Made by a program: the position numbers and the translations under genes | NCBI GenBank assembly: GCA_021372895.1 | Contig: JAJFTP010000066.1 | Location: 1 to 64,000, forward strand | Length of the DNA stretch: 64,000 nucleotides | Reading direction: 5' to 3' | Origin: Synergistaceae bacterium | Lineage (GTDB): Bacteria; Synergistota; Synergistia; Synergistales; Synergistaceae | Part shown: one piece after another, positions 35,202 to 43,032 of the stretch | How positions within the stretch are numbered: the stretch's first letter is position 1 | How the letters are laid out: every line of letters starts with the position of its first letter | Notes under the pieces: generated by a model | Told to the model about the DNA's origin: nothing | Database searches by the model: none | Seen by the model: the letters and a program-made list of their open reading frames with translations, nothing else

Positions 35202-35801
35202 ATGGTGAGCGGGATGAAGGTCACGATGCAGGATGTTGCGAAAGAGGCCGGTGTAGACAAGGCGACAGTGAGCCGTGTACTGAAAGGTGACCATCGCATA
35301 TCTGAGAAGACCAGGATGAAGGTCATAGAGGCTGTGCGCAGATTAAACTACCGTCTTGACCAAAATGCGCGTAACCTTTCGACTAACAGGAGCGGGCTCG
35401 TGGGTGCTGTAATGAGTGAGTTCAACACTATATGGTTTGCCCCTTTTGTTGCCGGCCTTGACCGCGCTATCGCAAACTCTGAATATGAGCTTGTCTTAAA
35501 GTGTACTGATGGTAACCCTAAGCGTGCTGTCCGTGAACTTGGCAAACTGCTTGACCGGAGTGTCGAGGGGATTATCTGGGCCGATTCTAAAAACGGTCCT
35601 GAGTGTGTTTCTGTGCCTCTGGTGACGCTCGGTTTCAAAATGGGGGATTATTTCTCCGTACTTTTTGAATCCGGACAGACGGTGCCGACATTTGAGACGG
35701 GTGTGCTTGCCGGCAGGTTTTTGCTCAATATAATATCAGGCAAACCTGTCCCTTCACGGGATATAATAATCAGCACAGCAGGGGCGGCAGAGGTATGCTG
35801 A
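35202..35801 (+). CDS. LacI-type regulator with drastically shortened effector domain
   Basis: The N terminus is a canonical LacI helix-turn-helix and hinge: MQDVAKEAGVDKATVSRVLK, then RLNYRLDQNARNLSTNRSG. The start of the periplasmic-binding-protein-like domain follows (VGAVMSEFNTIWFAPFVAGL). After about residue 150 (PLVTLGFKMGDYF) the sequence jumps to what is normally the last 30-40 residues of a LacI protein (AGRFLLNIISGKPVPSRDII). The protein has 199 residues instead of about 330, so some 130 residues of ligand-binding core are missing while the reading frame stays open. It probably binds DNA but cannot bind a sugar in the usual way. It overlaps the substrate-binding-protein gene and is likely the operon's own regulator. 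Starts at 35198, 35202 and 35214 are all possible. Confidence 0.8.
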   Translation: MVSGMKVTMQDVAKEAGVDKATVSRVLKGDHRISEKTRMKVIEAVRRLNYRLDQNARNLSTNRSGLVGAVMSEFNTIWFAPFVAGLDRAIANSEYELVLKCTDGNPKRAVRELGKLLDRSVEGIIWADSKNGPECVSVPLVTLGFKMGDYFSVLFESGQTVPTFETGVLAGRFLLNIISGKPVPSRDIIISTAGAAEVC

Positions 35802-37495
35802 TGTACGAATGGAAGCGGAGCGTTGCAAGTTTTGTATGCGTGTTCCTCCTTCTTGTACTGTCTGCGCCGTCAGCCCGCGCTCATGCAGGGAGGCTTGATC
35901 TCAGCAAGGTCTATGGCCCGAGGATAGAGAAGCTCTGTATGGTGATCATAGCAAACGACGACGCTAAGATACTTGCGGCTGAAAAGGGCGAGCTTGACAT
36001 CATAAGCGACATAACGCGTCCGTCCGATATAGACAGACTCAGCCGTGACCCTAAACTTGAGATGTCGCTCGCGCGCGGGTCCCACGCATTTTTTCTTCTG
36101 CTCAACAACAACTCCGAACCATGGAACGATAAGCTGGTCAGGCAAGCTGCGGCCGAGGCTATAGACCGCAACAATATTGTACGTACAATATTCTCCGGCT
36201 ATTGCGAACCTATAAACAGCTGGCTGCCGCCGGTCTCTCCATGGGCGCTGCCCGACAGCACTAAAAATATCTACAACCGGAATGAGGCGCGCCGCAAGCT
36301 CAGAAATCGGGGCTACACATGGAACGTTGCCGGCAATCTGGTAGCGCCCGATGGCAAACCGCTTAAGAAAATGAAGCTGCTTACGCCTCTTGCACGCGTT
36401 GCCCCGACTACAGCCGAGCTTGCCGAGCAGATAGCGGATTCACTGCATGCTATAGGATTCCCCGTTGAGGTCGAGCCGATGGATTTTTCCTCAATGATAG
36501 CTAAGCTTGACCGGAGGGAATATTCTCTTGCGGTGCTGGCTTGGTCGATGGGGCGCAATCCTGATTCTCTTTATTCTTTTTACCACAGTTCGATGAACGT
36601 GGAGGGCGGCTATAACATGACCGGGACAAGCGACCCTGAGCTTGACGCGGCACTTGTACGTCTGCGCTTTGCCAAAGATAAAAAAAACGCCGAAGCGGCA
36701 TCGGCGGAATCACAGCAGATCCTTTCCCGTCTTGTGCCGTCAATCCCGATATACAGCCGTTTTTCTGTGTCAGCAGTGTCTAAATCATGGAAGAACGTCC
36801 TTACGACGGACAGGATGACTGCCGACAACATATGGACGCTGATAATGGCAGAACCCAAGAACGGTAAAATGCGCCAGTTGAACATGATACTAGCGGAGGA
36901 GCCGCGCAACCTCAACCCTTTTGTGGCGGGCACAGCCTATTCATGGCAGGTGCTGGGGATGATATATGAAAGCCTTATAGGCACGGATCCGTTCACACTT
37001 GAAGATATGCCCGCTCTGGCGGGTTCATGGAGCGTTAAGACTGCGGGGAGCGGTAAGTCGGCCCATACGGAGCTTTCCTTCAAGATACTGCCGGGGTTGA
37101 AATGGAGCGACGGCAGCAAGCTTACAGCGCATGACGTCAGGGCGACGATAGATTTTCTGCGAAAGAATAAAATTCCCCGTTTTTTCGACTCGGTCAAAGA
37201 CATCAGCTCCGTTGAGTCATTCGACGACGGCAGGCTGATTGTGCGTATGAAGGGCATAAGCTACTGGTACCTTGATAATATCGGAGGTCTTCCGTGTATG
37301 CCGGAACGTGTGATAAGCCAAATAAAAGACTGGCAGAACTGGGACCCTATGGATGAAAACGGCAAGTTCGGCCCTGCGGGGCTTATTGGCTCCGGTCCGT
37401 TCATGCTTGACGAATACAAGCCCGGCGAATATGTAATGATGAAAAAAAATCCGCATTACAGGTTGCTTCGCAATATGAGAGGTGATAATAAGTGA
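35801..37495 (+). CDS. Oligopeptide-type ABC substrate-binding protein, circularly permuted
   Basis: Signal peptide (SVASFVCVFLLLVLSAPSARA) then mature protein. Residues about 38-350 match the C-terminal part of SBP family 5 proteins (RIEKLCMVIIANDDAKILAA, GELDII, VRQAAAEAIDRNNIV, EARRKLRNRGY, then LAEQIADSLHAIGFPVEVEP and IPIYSRF). Residues about 360-560 match the normal N-terminal part (LNMILAEEPRNLNPFV, VLGMIYESLIGTDPFT, FKILPGLKWSDGSKLTAHDV, IGSGPFMLDEYKPGEYVMMK, then KNPHYR). In ordinary members KNPxY directly precedes the RIEKL-like block. Here that junction forms the two protein ends and the ordinary ends are joined inside. The frame is uninterrupted and of normal total length, so it looks functional. 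The ATG at 35801 has AGAGG seven bases upstream. First transport gene of the operon; permease and ATPase genes follow with overlaps. Confidence 0.88.
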   Translation: MYEWKRSVASFVCVFLLLVLSAPSARAHAGRLDLSKVYGPRIEKLCMVIIANDDAKILAAEKGELDIISDITRPSDIDRLSRDPKLEMSLARGSHAFFLLLNNNSEPWNDKLVRQAAAEAIDRNNIVRTIFSGYCEPINSWLPPVSPWALPDSTKNIYNRNEARRKLRNRGYTWNVAGNLVAPDGKPLKKMKLLTPLARVAPTTAELAEQIADSLHAIGFPVEVEPMDFSSMIAKLDRREYSLAVLAWSMGRNPDSLYSFYHSSMNVEGGYNMTGTSDPELDAALVRLRFAKDKKNAEAASAESQQILSRLVPSIPIYSRFSVSAVSKSWKNVLTTDRMTADNIWTLIMAEPKNGKMRQLNMILAEEPRNLNPFVAGTAYSWQVLGMIYESLIGTDPFTLEDMPALAGSWSVKTAGSGKSAHTELSFKILPGLKWSDGSKLTAHDVRATIDFLRKNKIPRFFDSVKDISSVESFDDGRLIVRMKGISYWYLDNIGGLPCMPERVISQIKDWQNWDPMDENGKFGPAGLIGSGPFMLDEYKPGEYVMMKKNPHYRLLRNMRGDNK

Positions 37496-38466
37496 GGAAG
37501 TCATGGCTGTTGCGAAGGGTACTTTCATCGCTGATAGTCCTGGCAGCCGTGCTGGTGCTTAACTTCTTCCTGTTCAGGATCATGCCTGGCGATGCCGTGA
37601 ACACTATCATCGACCCCGGTTTTTCACCGGAGGCAAAGGACAGGCTGCGTGAGCTTTATGGACTTGACAGACCGTTGCTTGAACAGTTTTTTATATATAT
37701 AAAGCAGATGCTGACCTTCAGCTTCGGACTATCCTTCCTCAGCAGAAAGCCTGTATGGGATGAGCTCATATCGAGGCTGCCTGGCACGCTGGTGCTGATG
37801 ACGAGCTCGATGGTGCTTTCGTCTATACTTGGCATCTGGCTTGGTATAAAGGCCGCTCTTAACAGGGGCAGACTTGCTGAGCGCATAGTGCTCCGCGCCG
37901 GAGCGATAACGACCTCGTTCCCCGGTTTCTTTGTACAGCTTGTGCTGCTTATGCTTCTTGCACGAACGTTCCATTTCTTCCCGCTGCGTGGAAGTGTCTC
38001 CGTCCCGCAGCCTCAGGGAACGCTGGCTCTGACTTTTGACTATATATGGCACATGGCGCTACCGGTGCTCTCTCTTACGCTGATCGGTTTCGGGGGGTGG
38101 GCGCTTTATGTGCGCAACCTCATGGTACGCGTACTTGGTGAGGACTTCGTGCTGATGGCGCGCGCGCGCGGACTTTCTGAAAGGCAGGTCGTATATGGCC
38201 ACGCGTTCCGTACGATACTTCCGCCTATACTTACGATACTGCTTATGTCTGTTCCCGGACTTGTATCCGGAGCGGTGATAACGGAATCTGTTTTTTCCCT
38301 CCACGGGATCGGGACTTTTCTTCTTGAAGCGGTATCCGGACATGATTATCCTTCGGCCGGTGCGGCGTTCTATCTGCTGGCGCTGATAACAGTCATCTGT
38401 AATTTCCTGGCAGACATAGTCTACGGCATTGTTGACCCGCGCGTCCGCATAGAGGGCAGGAACTGA
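37492..38466 (+). CDS. ABC transporter permease, DppB/OppB type
   Basis: Inner-membrane permease of 324 residues with six predicted helices. The N-terminal FFLFRIMPGDAVNTII and the DPGFSPEAKDRLRELYGLDRP block are typical of DppB. The cytoplasmic EAA-like loop LMARARGLSERQVVYGHAFR contacts the ATPases, followed by GAVITESVFSLHGIG. The GTG start overlaps the stop of the binding-protein gene, giving tight coupling. The usual length indicates that this subunit is not altered like its partner DppC. Confidence 0.93.
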   Translation: MRKSWLLRRVLSSLIVLAAVLVLNFFLFRIMPGDAVNTIIDPGFSPEAKDRLRELYGLDRPLLEQFFIYIKQMLTFSFGLSFLSRKPVWDELISRLPGTLVLMTSSMVLSSILGIWLGIKAALNRGRLAERIVLRAGAITTSFPGFFVQLVLLMLLARTFHFFPLRGSVSVPQPQGTLALTFDYIWHMALPVLSLTLIGFGGWALYVRNLMVRVLGEDFVLMARARGLSERQVVYGHAFRTILPPILTILLMSVPGLVSGAVITESVFSLHGIGTFLLEAVSGHDYPSAGAAFYLLALITVICNFLADIVYGIVDPRVRIEGRN

Positions 38467-39647
38467 TGGAGACTCTGTTAAGGCGCCGGAGCATAATAGC
38501 TTTTATTATAATATGCATTATCGGGATCACCGGGCCTATGCTTATCGCAGGACATCCATCGGACATAGTCGGAGCGCCTTTCGCAAGGCCTTTATGGTGG
38601 GATCTGAGCCTTCCGGTGACCGTAACTATGGATATAAATCAAGACGGGGCCGGGTTTCGATGGACAAAACTTCCTCCTGCTATATTCGCCGTTACAGGCA
38701 GGGTCAACGCAGACCCGCGGGATCAGGTGAATATAGTCTGGCAGACACCGAAGGGCAAGTATACGATTGCCTCGCTTACAGGACACACTGTTTACTGGAT
38801 CAACATAGATGGACGCGACATGATCTTCAAGCAGGCGCTTGGCCTCCCGCTCATAGGCAGGAGCGTGGATCATCTTTTCCCGTCTCCGGGAAATTACAGG
38901 ATATCAGTGGAAGGAGCCTCATCCGCGGATTTAAGGATTTCTCTTCCAGGGGGAAGGCAGGGTCTTCTTGGTACCGATCAGCGCGGACGTGACGTCTTTA
39001 CTCTGCTTATATATGGCATACGTACCTCTCTTATTGTCGGTATAAGCGCGACAATAATAGCCAGTCTGTTTGGCCTAGGGTTCGGGCTTGCGGCCGGATA
39101 CATCGGCGGGTGGGTCGATGCGCTGATAATGCGTGCGGTGGACATTCTCCTCTCTATTCCCACGCTTCCTATACTGATGGTGCTTGCGGGTATATGGGGT
39201 AAGGGGCTATGGCAGCTTGTACTGATACTCTCTATCTTCTCATGGATGGGCACGGCCCGTTCTGTTCGCGCACTGGTCCTTACAGTCAGGGAGAGCCCCT
39301 GGATAGAGGGCCTTAAGGCCCTTGGGGCAAAGCGCAGCTACATACTGTGGCGCCATCTTGTGCCTGAGACAGCTCCGATCCTGCTTGCCAATGTAGCGCT
39401 TGGTGTCCCCGGGGCTATTCTTGCTGAGGCCGGACTTGCATTTCTCGGACTTTCGGACCCGCGCCTGATATCCTGGGGCAAAATGCTTCATGAGGCCCAT
39501 TCGTTCGGCGCCTTCACTGAAGGCGCATGGTGGCTGCTGCTGCCTCCCGGTATCGGGATAGTGGCGCTGTGTCTGATATTTATGGACATAGGACGCTACC
39601 TCGAGGAACGCATAGACCCAAGGCTCGGGGGCGGTAAAAATGCTTGA
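38466..39647 (+). CDS. ABC transporter permease, DppC/OppC type, with extra extracytoplasmic domain
   Basis: Second permease. Helix 1 (IIAFIIICIIGITGPMLI) is followed by about 110 residues (about 38-150) rich in beta-strand-like sequence (TVTMDINQDGAGFRWTKL, IVWQTPKGKYTIASLTGHTV, SPGNYRISVEGASSADLRIS). The ordinary DppC continuation then resumes: LLGTDQRGRDVFTLLIYGIR, GYIGGWVDALIMRAVDILLS, the EAA loop GLKALGAKRSYILWRHLVPE, and SWGKMLHEA. At 393 residues it is about 100 longer than normal DppC. The insert would lie outside the membrane, next to the permuted binding protein, where it could dock it. ATG overlaps the dppB-type stop; its end overlaps the next ATPase gene. Confidence 0.9.
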   Translation: METLLRRRSIIAFIIICIIGITGPMLIAGHPSDIVGAPFARPLWWDLSLPVTVTMDINQDGAGFRWTKLPPAIFAVTGRVNADPRDQVNIVWQTPKGKYTIASLTGHTVYWINIDGRDMIFKQALGLPLIGRSVDHLFPSPGNYRISVEGASSADLRISLPGGRQGLLGTDQRGRDVFTLLIYGIRTSLIVGISATIIASLFGLGFGLAAGYIGGWVDALIMRAVDILLSIPTLPILMVLAGIWGKGLWQLVLILSIFSWMGTARSVRALVLTVRESPWIEGLKALGAKRSYILWRHLVPETAPILLANVALGVPGAILAEAGLAFLGLSDPRLISWGKMLHEAHSFGAFTEGAWWLLLPPGIGIVALCLIFMDIGRYLEERIDPRLGGGKNA

Positions 39648-40404
39648 TATCCGAGCCCTCACAGTAAGATACACCGGTGGCCGGACCTGCACTGATGCTG
39701 TGCGCGGCATCTCATTTATGCTTGAACGCGGTTCGTTCACCGGGCTGGTGGGCGGATCCGGCAGCGGCAAGAGCACTATGATAATGGCTGCGCTCGGCCT
39801 GCTGCCGAAAGGGACGTCTGTAAGCGGCGAGATACGTTTTAATGACAAAAATATTCTTGCCCTAAAAGAAGACGGACTTCAGAAAATAAGATGGAAGGAG
39901 ATCTCGCTGGTCCCGCAGGGTGCGCTTAACTCGTTTACACCGGTGCTTACGATAGGACACCATATAGAGGAAGTGCTGCGGGTCCACATGTCCATGGAAG
40001 GTCCGGAAGCTGCGGAAAAAATAGGTGCCCTTCTGGAAGAGGTAGGGCTGGATGTTTCGATCAGGAAAAGATACCCTCACGAGCTCTCCGGCGGACAGAA
40101 GCAGCGAGCGGCTATAGCGCTTGCTCTTTCGTGCTCCCCCTCGCTCCTTTTTGCTGATGAGCCCACTACGGCGCTTGATGTGATAACACAGGCAGAGATA
40201 CTCAAACTCCTCTTGAAGCTGAGGGAGGATAAGGGGTTGACTGTGTTTTTTGTGACGCATGACCTCCCATTGGCAGCAACTGTCTGCGACCGGCTGCTTG
40301 TTATGAAGGACGGGCTTCTGGTTGAGGATGGTACGCCCGATGATATAATCACTGATCCTAAACACTCCCATACAAGAGACCTGGTAAGGGCAATGCTGAC
40401 ATAA
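39640..40404 (+). CDS. ABC transporter ATPase, DppD/OppD type
   Basis: Nucleotide-binding protein of 254 residues. Walker A GGSGSGKST near residue 41, Q-loop LVPQGALNSFTPV (typical of OppD/NikD), signature LSGGQKQRAAIA, Walker B LLFADEPTTALD, and H-loop FFVTHDLP. It lacks the long C-terminal Fe-S/peptide tail of some OppD proteins. It works as a heterodimer with the next gene. Its first codons overlap the permease gene and its last base overlaps the next start. Confidence 0.93.
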   Translation: MLDIRALTVRYTGGRTCTDAVRGISFMLERGSFTGLVGGSGSGKSTMIMAALGLLPKGTSVSGEIRFNDKNILALKEDGLQKIRWKEISLVPQGALNSFTPVLTIGHHIEEVLRVHMSMEGPEAAEKIGALLEEVGLDVSIRKRYPHELSGGQKQRAAIALALSCSPSLLFADEPTTALDVITQAEILKLLLKLREDKGLTVFFVTHDLPLAATVCDRLLVMKDGLLVEDGTPDDIITDPKHSHTRDLVRAMLT

Positions 40405-41240
40405 TGGCGGTGGAGATAATGGAAGCAGAAAGGGATAATATACTGAAAGCTGAAAAACTCACAATCTGTTTTAAATCTAAAAACAGGACGCTGCACACTG
40501 CGGTCGATAATATATCGCTTTCTCTAAGCGGCGGAGAGACCCTTGCGATAGTCGGAGAATCAGGAAGCGGAAAGACGACGCTTCTGCGAGCCATTATGGG
40601 ACTTGCGGAAAAAACAGCAGGGAAGGTCTTCCTGTTTGGCTTGGATGTGGATATGTTAATGTTTAGTGAACTTGCAAAATTGCGACGCAGGTGCGGATAT
40701 GTCGCGCAGGATCCGTATGGGGCAATACCACCGGGGCTATCGGCACTCGAGGCGGTTATTGAACCGGAGGTCATTGCCCACTCCGGTATGCCTAAAGAAG
40801 AAGCAAGGATCAGGGCAAAGAAGCTGCTGGCGGAGCTTGGCCTGGAGGGTGAAAGGATACTGAACTCACGTGCGGTCGGACTTTCAGGCGGACAGCGACA
40901 GCGTGTTGAACTGGCCCGTTCTCTCATGCTTGCGCCAGAACTGCTGTTGTGTGACGAGCCGACATCGATGCAGGATGTATCTACTCGCGGCGATATTATC
41001 GAAGTCCTTAAACAGAGGGTGGCGTCCGGAATGGCCATGATATTTGTCACGCATGACCTCTTACTGGCGGGGCGTGCCGCTGATAGGATAATGGTGATGA
41101 AAGGCGGTAAGCTCTGTGAGGAGGGGACGACAAAATCAGTGCTCAACAGCCCTTCGCATCCTTATACTGTTGCGCTGATAAACGCTGTGCCGCGTATTAC
41201 AAGCAAGGGGATCTGCAAAGCAGCAGCCATAAAACCATAA
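40404..41240 (+). CDS. ABC transporter ATPase, DppF/OppF type
   Basis: Second ATPase, 278 residues. Walker A GESGSGKTT near residue 49, Q-loop YVAQDPYGAIPPG, signature LSGGQRQRVELA, Walker B LLLCDEPTSMQD, H-loop FVTHDLLLAG. The usual aspartate after the Walker B proline-threonine block is kept as MQDVS. The C-terminal SPSHPYTVALINAVP is the OppF-type tail. Last gene of the operon. The downstream mscL has its own ribosome site 90 bp away. Confidence 0.93.
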   Translation: MAVEIMEAERDNILKAEKLTICFKSKNRTLHTAVDNISLSLSGGETLAIVGESGSGKTTLLRAIMGLAEKTAGKVFLFGLDVDMLMFSELAKLRRRCGYVAQDPYGAIPPGLSALEAVIEPEVIAHSGMPKEEARIRAKKLLAELGLEGERILNSRAVGLSGGQRQRVELARSLMLAPELLLCDEPTSMQDVSTRGDIIEVLKQRVASGMAMIFVTHDLLLAGRAADRIMVMKGGKLCEEGTTKSVLNSPSHPYTVALINAVPRITSKGICKAAAIKP

Positions 41241-41449: not shown

Positions 41450-43032
41450 CAGTCTGTCGGGGATTACCTGGGAAATGATACCATTTAATCCCTCCCTCAA
41501 CGTTTTAAACGTCTTTTTCAGGTTATTCGCCCTGCAGTCTTCTTCTTTCTTCGCGGTCTGATCTTAATTTAAGGCGGCTTCATTCATCAGAACATGTAAT
41601 CTCTTTATGTTCCATGACAGGCATACCAACTGCCATTCAGATCGGACCGCTTCCAGTCCACGGGAAAGAAACTGACGGAAGCCCAATACATTCTTGATGA
41701 TGCCGAATACTGGCTCTATCGTGCATTTTCTTCGTGAAAATATCTTACGCCCCTCTTTGCTCTTGAGCCTGTATTTCAATCGCTCCGTCGCCCTCTTCGC
41801 CACTTCAGGCTCTGATTCTGTAAATCGCTCGATAATACCCTGGTTATGCGACACCCGTCCAAGAGCTATGAAGGGCGTGATGTTTCTATCTTCACAGGCT
41901 TCCACGTTGGTCTCGCTGTAATAGCCCGCATCAGCCAGTATTTTTTGCACTTCGGGCAGATCTTCGGGCAACTGATCAATGGCTTCAAGCATCGGAATTA
42001 ATTCCTGTCTGTCATTGGGATTTTGAGTCACATTGGACACTACTACCAGAAGAGTTTCGTTATCGACCGCCGCCTGTGCGTTGAAACACTGTTCAAAACC
42101 ACCGCCCGATATTGGCATGATCCGAGAATCTCCGTCCGTGAGATTCACCTGATCCTTTGCCCGCGGCTCAGGCCCTTCGGGAGCGGCGGGAGCTCTGCCG
42201 CGGCTCTTCTTTCCTGTCTCCTGCTCGCGCTTTGCGCGAGACTTGAGTTTATCCTCATATTCTTTCTTTTCTTGCTCGTAGCGATCTGACGCACGACGTT
42301 GGATCTCTCTCTTTGCCGCCTGGATCGCAACAATTCGCTCGCTTCGACGTGAAAGTTCCTCCGGAATGTCAAGGTCTTCAGGAAGACTGGCGTTGTCCGC
42401 TTCTTCAGCCATCTTCAGCAATTCTTTCACCTCGGACTGAAGCCGCTCCTCAAGCTCGCAGGCGTGACCGTAGCTCATTGCCGAGTGCTTTGACGCGTTT
42501 GCGTGAACTTTTGTCCCGTCGATACTAACTGTGCCAAGTTTGAGACAGCCGACTTGATCCGCCGTCAACAGAATCTGCGTGAACAGCGAGCCAAGCTCAG
42601 GCAAAAACCTTTTACGGAAATTGGATATGGTGTCGTGGTCAGGATGCATGTTGACCGCTATATATCGAAAGGCGACAGAATCGTAGGTTGCACGCTCTAT
42701 TTTTCTGCTTGAAAATATTCCTGTCGCATATCCGTAAAAGATCAAGGCGAGCAACATCCTCGGGTGATACGCGGCAACTCCGCCTTTGCGATAAGCCGAT
42801 TCAATCGTACGAATATCAAGACTGTCGACGAGCTCGACAACAAATCTGGCAAGATGATCTTCAGGAAGCCATTCATCAACTGATTCAGGGAAAAGATACT
42901 TGCTATTCCTGTTAATATCTCTGAAATTCCTACTCATGTCAAATCACCCTTAAACACTGATATTACTGATATTTTAGCATGTTTCATGTGATCTGGGGGA
43001 ATGCTGTAAGAAAGGCTAAATCCGACAGACTG
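41450..43032. mobile_element. IS1182-family insertion sequence (1583 bp)
   Basis: Ends are 11-bp perfect inverted repeats CAGTCTGTCGG (41450-41460 and 43022-43032), with weaker similarity beyond. The element is flanked by a 4-bp target duplication CTAG (41446-41449 and 43033-43036). It carries one intact transposase on minus. IS1182-family elements often insert into palindromes, and CTAG is one. The intact transposase and exact duplication suggest a recent insertion. Confidence 0.95.
41564..42937 (-). CDS. IS1182-family transposase
   Basis: DDE transposase of 457 residues. The N terminus (PESVDEWLPEDHLARFVVEL, RMLLALIFYGYATGIFSSRK, then HPDHDTISNFRKRF) is the DUF772-type domain. The catalytic core includes VSIDGTKVHANASKHSAMS (first Asp), NAQAAVDNETLLVV, LADAGYYSETN (second Asp), and the C-terminal EPVFGIIKNVLGFRQFLSRG (Glu). 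A central charged stretch of about 80 residues (EQEKKEYEDKLKSRAKREQE) is an insertion typical of the family. The gene appears complete, reads opposite to mscL and has no frameshift, so it should be active. Confidence 0.95.
   Translation of the reverse strand: MSRNFRDINRNSKYLFPESVDEWLPEDHLARFVVELVDSLDIRTIESAYRKGGVAAYHPRMLLALIFYGYATGIFSSRKIERATYDSVAFRYIAVNMHPDHDTISNFRKRFLPELGSLFTQILLTADQVGCLKLGTVSIDGTKVHANASKHSAMSYGHACELEERLQSEVKELLKMAEEADNASLPEDLDIPEELSRRSERIVAIQAAKREIQRRASDRYEQEKKEYEDKLKSRAKREQETGKKSRGRAPAAPEGPEPRAKDQVNLTDGDSRIMPISGGGFEQCFNAQAAVDNETLLVVVSNVTQNPNDRQELIPMLEAIDQLPEDLPEVQKILADAGYYSETNVEACEDRNITPFIALGRVSHNQGIIERFTESEPEVAKRATERLKYRLKSKEGRKIFSRRKCTIEPVFGIIKNVLGFRQFLSRGLEAVRSEWQLVCLSWNIKRLHVLMNEAALN

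Follow-up and report, generated by a model that had tools for sequence, protein, structure and literature searches.

The gene at 35801-37495 of the window (by which we mean the whole 64,000-nucleotide stretch of Synergistaceae DNA that was analysed) encodes a substrate-binding protein of the SBP_bac_5 family in which the order of the family's two halves is swapped. We consider it very likely that the product is a working family-5 binding protein that has undergone natural circular permutation and serves a Dpp/Opp/Nik-type ABC importer; its fold, its role in transport and its origin are inferred, and there are no ligand or transport data. The gene and its parts are as follows.

35801..37495, forward strand: circularly permuted SBP_bac_5 (family 5 / cluster C) substrate-binding protein, 564 aa (open reading frame, Pfam, orthologues)
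35801..35881, forward strand: predicted Sec signal peptide, MYEWKR..VASFVCVFLLLVLSAPSARA, with an AxA-type site (read from the sequence by eye, no dedicated predictor)
35918..36589, forward strand: first-encoded half, PF00496 positions 146-363, normally the second half (Pfam)
36848..36874, forward strand: linker AEPKNGKMR, from the normal C-terminus to the normal N-terminus
37010..37462, forward strand: second-encoded half, PF00496 positions 4-141, normally the first half, with NPHYR at its end (Pfam)

The product (564 residues) is read from a single uninterrupted frame, for which an alternative ATG exists at 35795 (overlapping the 3' end of the upstream LacI-like gene), and the aligned orthologues likewise start with a hydrophobic N-terminus. 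Against PF00496 (SBP_bac_5, 368 positions) the protein scored 200 bits (E=8.3e-59, curated cut-off 32.4) in two stretches: residues 40-263 align to HMM positions 146-363, the same positions that the first half recovers when scanned alone, and the second half scanned alone (36845-37492) aligns to positions 4-141. The two stretches tile the model nearly without gap or overlap, in reversed order and within one open frame; by sequence score the protein belongs to SBP_bac_5, and by segment order it departs from the family, for which reason we file it as a permuted variant. All the PDB matches listed for it were ordinary family-5 chains, and the three alignments inspected that cover both halves (1xoc, 5u4o and 8efz) have them swapped, as in 1xoc (AppA), where query residues 367-553 fall on chain residues 31-207 and query residues 98-314 on chain residues 268-480. 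With the sequence un-rotated at the proposed junctions, its Smith-Waterman score rose from 150 to 266 against one normal-order protein and from 249 to 424 against another (shuffled-sequence control: average 38-40, maximum 73). A tandem of two unrelated domains was rejected, as both halves are PF00496 with swapped coordinates.

The permuted order was recovered from 108 of 188 sampled Synergistota genomes, spread over 46 of 63 genera and ten families (window-protein match at E<=1e-60, with a profile search also run), and nearly all of these matches consisted of one full-length piece at 41-73% identity. The genomes that carry the gene include single-contig ones (G014, G029, G049, G057, G078 and G080), and a scan of the genome collection for exact short patterns (which detects close relatives only) returned Synergistaceae, Synergistes, Pyramidobacter and Candidatus Caccocola. 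When 14 genomes were scanned with PF00496, all 12 that possess an orthologue gave positions ~146-363 ahead of 2-145; the other 40 SBP_bac_5 genes of these 14 genomes were in normal order. A rotated profile, against which the permuted genes mostly break into two matches split at the junction, retrieved permuted genes only, with no surviving normal-order orthologue in the phylum at E<=1e-75. Conservation is shown at the level of order, and also at that of sequence (82 invariant columns across 18 diverse permuted members). The gene is missing from several Synergistota genera, which indicates that it is not essential to the phylum, and its absence from some single-contig genomes (G002, G005) implies that losses occurred. 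The gene tree follows the families (11 label changes, where the minimum is 9), with the exceptions of genus g55 (family f4), placed inside f1, and g11 (f1), placed inside f3; these placements suggest a few transfers within Synergistota. As a separate observation, the permuted gene of one near-complete genome (2 contigs; L168, G161:C1:1106303-1107930) is interrupted by a frameshift near query residue 391, which may be real or a sequencing error.

Outside the phylum the window-type order was not encountered in any of ~360 sampled genomes. A profile search of ~204 genomes from other phyla gave a single half-length match (G284), of the normal-order type, and sets of 100, 17 and 43 genomes from three more phyla (a few of them overlapping) yielded no window-type permuted gene. 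Among plasmids, the best 50 matches to the window protein were all two-piece, at 25-29% identity, which corresponds to normal order; the viral contigs searched gave no match, and the phage records searched gave half-length matches only. Considering that these are sampled genomes and not an exhaustive survey, the absence of the window type outside Synergistota is likely rather than established.

The binding-protein gene is the first of an operon with the order SBP-DppB-DppC-DppD-DppF, preceded by a regulator gene.

35202..35801, forward strand: short LacI-family regulator, 199 aa, whose end overlaps the beginning of the binding-protein gene (PF00356)
37492..38466, forward strand: DppB/OppB-type permease (PF00528 and PF19300; best NCBIfam Opp4B, below cut-off)
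38466..39647, forward strand: DppC/OppC-type permease, 393 aa, with a large extra N-terminal region (PF00528 at aa 203-383; Opp4C aligns from aa 158)
38556..38936, forward strand: extra region of DppC, ~aa 31-157
39640..40404, forward strand: DppD-type ATPase (PF00005)
40404..41240, forward strand: DppF-type ATPase (PF00005 and oligo_HPY PF08352)

Linkage to Dpp/Opp/Nik-type permeases and ATPases is shown in the window and at diverse loci: in 17 of 20 loci, picked from all ten families, the five-gene set was contiguous with the orthologue, and of the remaining three two (L067, L072) are truncated by contig ends and one (L074) has every gene in the right order but with a gap of ~2.7 kb between DppB and DppC. 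No NCBIfam equivalog was matched above its cut-off, the nearest being Opp4B and Opp4C for the permeases (far below theirs), and the genes around the operon vary between genera. The operon appears loosened in three genomes of family f3: besides L074 (G143), the permuted gene stands without DppB or DppC alongside in G152 (L167), and in G147 (L166) it is accompanied by DppB with no DppC near, although the contig continues. Two observations concern the flanks. LacI-family proteins usually have ~330 aa, and the regulator of the window, at 199 aa, has a much shortened effector domain; a similarly short form (192-211 aa) lies upstream of the operon in three further genera (L057, L058, L059). Directly 3' of the operon, an ORF on the reverse strand (41564-42937, 457 aa) resembles, by inspection, an IS1182-type transposase.

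These results bear on the first-pass annotation of the gene, which was made without database searches and had described a circularly permuted oligopeptide-binding protein. The permutation itself held, since aligning each half separately to Pfam gave swapped and not normal-order HMM coordinates, and the motif order is reversed as described; so did the normal total length and open frame (564 residues, one ORF). The claim that a short linker joins the normal ends held with a correction (the linker proper, AEPKNGKMR, has only ~9 residues), and the new ends do fall at the NPxY junction, with ~ten further residues between NPHYR and the stop codon. That the protein is a stable fold variant rather than a broken gene is supported by its conservation, single predicted signal peptide, intact frame and intact transporter operon. 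The label 'oligopeptide-binding', in the absence of ligand data, is only a family-level inference.

A second class of permuted SBP_bac_5 proteins, with a different cut point, came to light in one of the Synergistota genomes (G037), where the PF00496 match runs over positions 281-366 first and then 2-287, in one 561-codon frame.

L172:7614-9293 (G037:C273), reverse strand: second-class gene, 559 aa including a signal peptide; the surrounding Dpp-type operon has a DppC of normal length (286 aa)
L175:4974-6623: second-class locus
L178:4983-6659: second-class locus

When the two parts were scanned separately, the swapped order was confirmed for G037, Halalkalicoccus jeotgali and Ketogulonicigenium vulgare (in the latter two the short part alone scores slightly under the curated cut-off), and the cut lies inside domain III. 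It is thus shown that family-5 binding proteins are permuted at two different cut points. Members of the second class occur across haloarchaea and Alphaproteobacteria, and in at least one Synergistota genome. Its plasmid matches are in one piece, mostly spanning 87-100% of the query (26-43% identity), and come from hosts that include Nitratireductor, Microvirga, Neorhizobium, Roseomonas, Ketogulonicigenium, Maritalea and several haloarchaea. The annotated examples that were fetched (e.g., Halalkalicoccus WP_238532955.1 and Ketogulonicigenium WP_013385786.1) bear no label more specific than 'ABC transporter substrate-binding protein'.

In a tree of rotated sequences each permuted class forms one starred clade, and a starred branch separates both classes, together with one normal-order Cytobacillus protein, from 15 other normal-order proteins; the data neither establish nor reject a single clade for the two classes (p-AU 0.349). 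In many proteins of either class the tail before the linker has a motif like W[TS]xL..xEP, which none of the 16 normal-order proteins searched possesses, and mean tail similarity between the classes is 22.3 (controls: 13.4-14.3). We stress that the motif was noticed after viewing the data and in a small sample. Together, motif and tail similarity hint at a single C-to-N fusion opened at two places. The bolder reading, in which one ancient fusion was re-opened at NPxYW and inside domain III and, in Synergistota, became paired with a permease bearing an extra region, is one that we entertain but would on balance not favour.

The permease in question, DppC, begins its permease domain only at ~aa 158-203, which leaves ~110-130 extra residues after the first membrane segment (a position from which we infer, without direct evidence, that they are periplasmic). 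The region has an invariant PFxxPxW and a conserved DxDxRDxxFK-type motif, and gave no Pfam match above cut-off. DppC matches from other phyla and other operons start at ~aa 134-168, beyond the extra region, so that it is missing both outside the phylum and from paralogous DppC genes, being conserved only with the permuted-gene operon. Long-type DppC matches occur in 104 Synergistota genomes (a few of them covered only in part), and the permuted gene is present in 102 of these; conversely, 102 of the 108 permuted-gene genomes have the long type, and in four of the six exceptions the gene lies near a contig end. It is conceivable, therefore, that the permuted protein needs the extra region, and that the new ends and the enlarged permease make up a co-adapted docking pair, as both this co-occurrence and the restriction of the region to the permuted-gene operon would suggest. 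Against this, the association may reflect nothing more than the shared descent of one operon, and the second class adjoins a DppC of normal length (G037), from which it follows that permutation as such does not require the extra region. Docking thus remains a possibility, no more.

Returning to the reading we prefer, that of a functional permuted binding protein, we propose the following. The mature chain would start at the normal NPxYW/IxxVVF junction, run through domain III to the normal C-terminus, pass by way of the short linker to the normal N-terminus, and end at NPHYR, and it would fold into the usual three-dimensional shape. In SBP_bac_5 proteins the N- and C-terminal strands belong to the same domain (domain I), which puts them within reach of a short linker, and the NPxYW junction could plausibly offer a surface position for new termini. 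In the periplasm the protein may bind a peptide-like or metal-chelate-like ligand (undetermined), which would be handed to the DppB-DppC permease, driven by DppD-DppF. Structure prediction lends little to this inference: AF2 reached a pLDDT of 36 with the single sequence and, at best, 51 with ten close homologues (a shallow alignment), which is too weak for placing the new ends in space. Foldseek, run on the latter model, still returned NikA/AppA/DppA as best hits (TM 0.3-0.4 over ~285 columns). The lone gene of G152, the missing DppC near that of G147 and the genera that lack the gene also count against the reading. As for origin, duplication, fusion and trimming are the usual route to circular permutations, and we infer, as the simplest origin, that a normal-order gene was duplicated in tandem and fused in frame, after which the outer parts were lost. 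This would have taken place no later than the common ancestor of the sampled Synergistota and been followed by mostly vertical inheritance with losses.

Of the explanations that compete with this proposal, the one that survives best is that the gene is a chimera, the C-half of one binding-protein gene joined to the N-half of another. A fusion of two paralogues would formally look alike, and a similar possibility was raised by the authors of TpMglB-2 for their own protein (PMC4990184). We find it unlikely, considering that the halves cover PF00496 nearly edge to edge and without overlapping (146-363 and 4-141), that the total length is normal and that both halves are kept together across the phylum. 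That two close paralogues were fused at the origin remains possible; even so, the protein would be a topological permutation today. Less credible still is a degenerate or non-transport relic (e.g., a sensor), for which one might cite the upstream LacI-like regulator, itself shortened; the intact frames, the invariant columns noted above and the complete permease/ATPase set adjoining the gene make it very unlikely. Finally, an assembly or binning artefact that swapped two segments of one gene, which the fragmented assembly of the window genome (97 contigs) might have invited and which would have refuted the permutation, is rejected and all but excluded, as the order recurs, with the same operon, among the orthologues of 108 Synergistota genomes, which come from many independent assemblies and include single-contig ones.

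Natural circular permutation is rare among ABC-importer binding proteins. In the literature searched (most subscription journals were outside its scope) we found no report of a permuted family-5 protein, and TpMglB-2 was the only natural permuted ABC-importer binding protein that we came across. What the window adds is permutation within one of the largest families of binding proteins, conserved over most of a phylum, to which the second class adds a form spread over bacteria and archaea. The two classes reveal where the family-5 fold tolerates new ends, a tolerance that bears on permease docking, fold evolution and biosensor design. Annotation pipelines blind to the order of matched stretches overlook such proteins.

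Compared with DppA, OppA/AppA and NikA, the window protein has two halves that are clear PF00496 members, the same length class and the same DppB/C/D/F operon type; it differs in that the halves are reversed, the new ends lie at the NPxYW junction and the normal ends are joined by the ~9-residue linker, and its identity to normal-order family-5 proteins is only ~24-29%. With the second class it shares permutation of SBP_bac_5 and a place in Dpp-type operons, whereas the cut points differ. TpMglB-2 (Tp0684) of Treponema pallidum is a naturally circularly permuted cluster B glucose-binding protein, for which glucose binding has been shown and whose authors proposed that being tethered to the membrane could have favoured the altered topology (PMC4990184); as most window-type members lack a clear lipobox (by inspection), this argument is not obviously transferable. 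Membership in the TpMglB-2-like group (cluster Bc) was considered and rejected, since the window protein matches PF00496 and no periplasmic sugar-binding family. Both are natural circular permutations of ABC-importer binding proteins kept across many species, but TpMglB-2 (type I / cluster B, sugar-binding) differs in fold class, cut point and transporter family, and the permutation described here represents a separate event.
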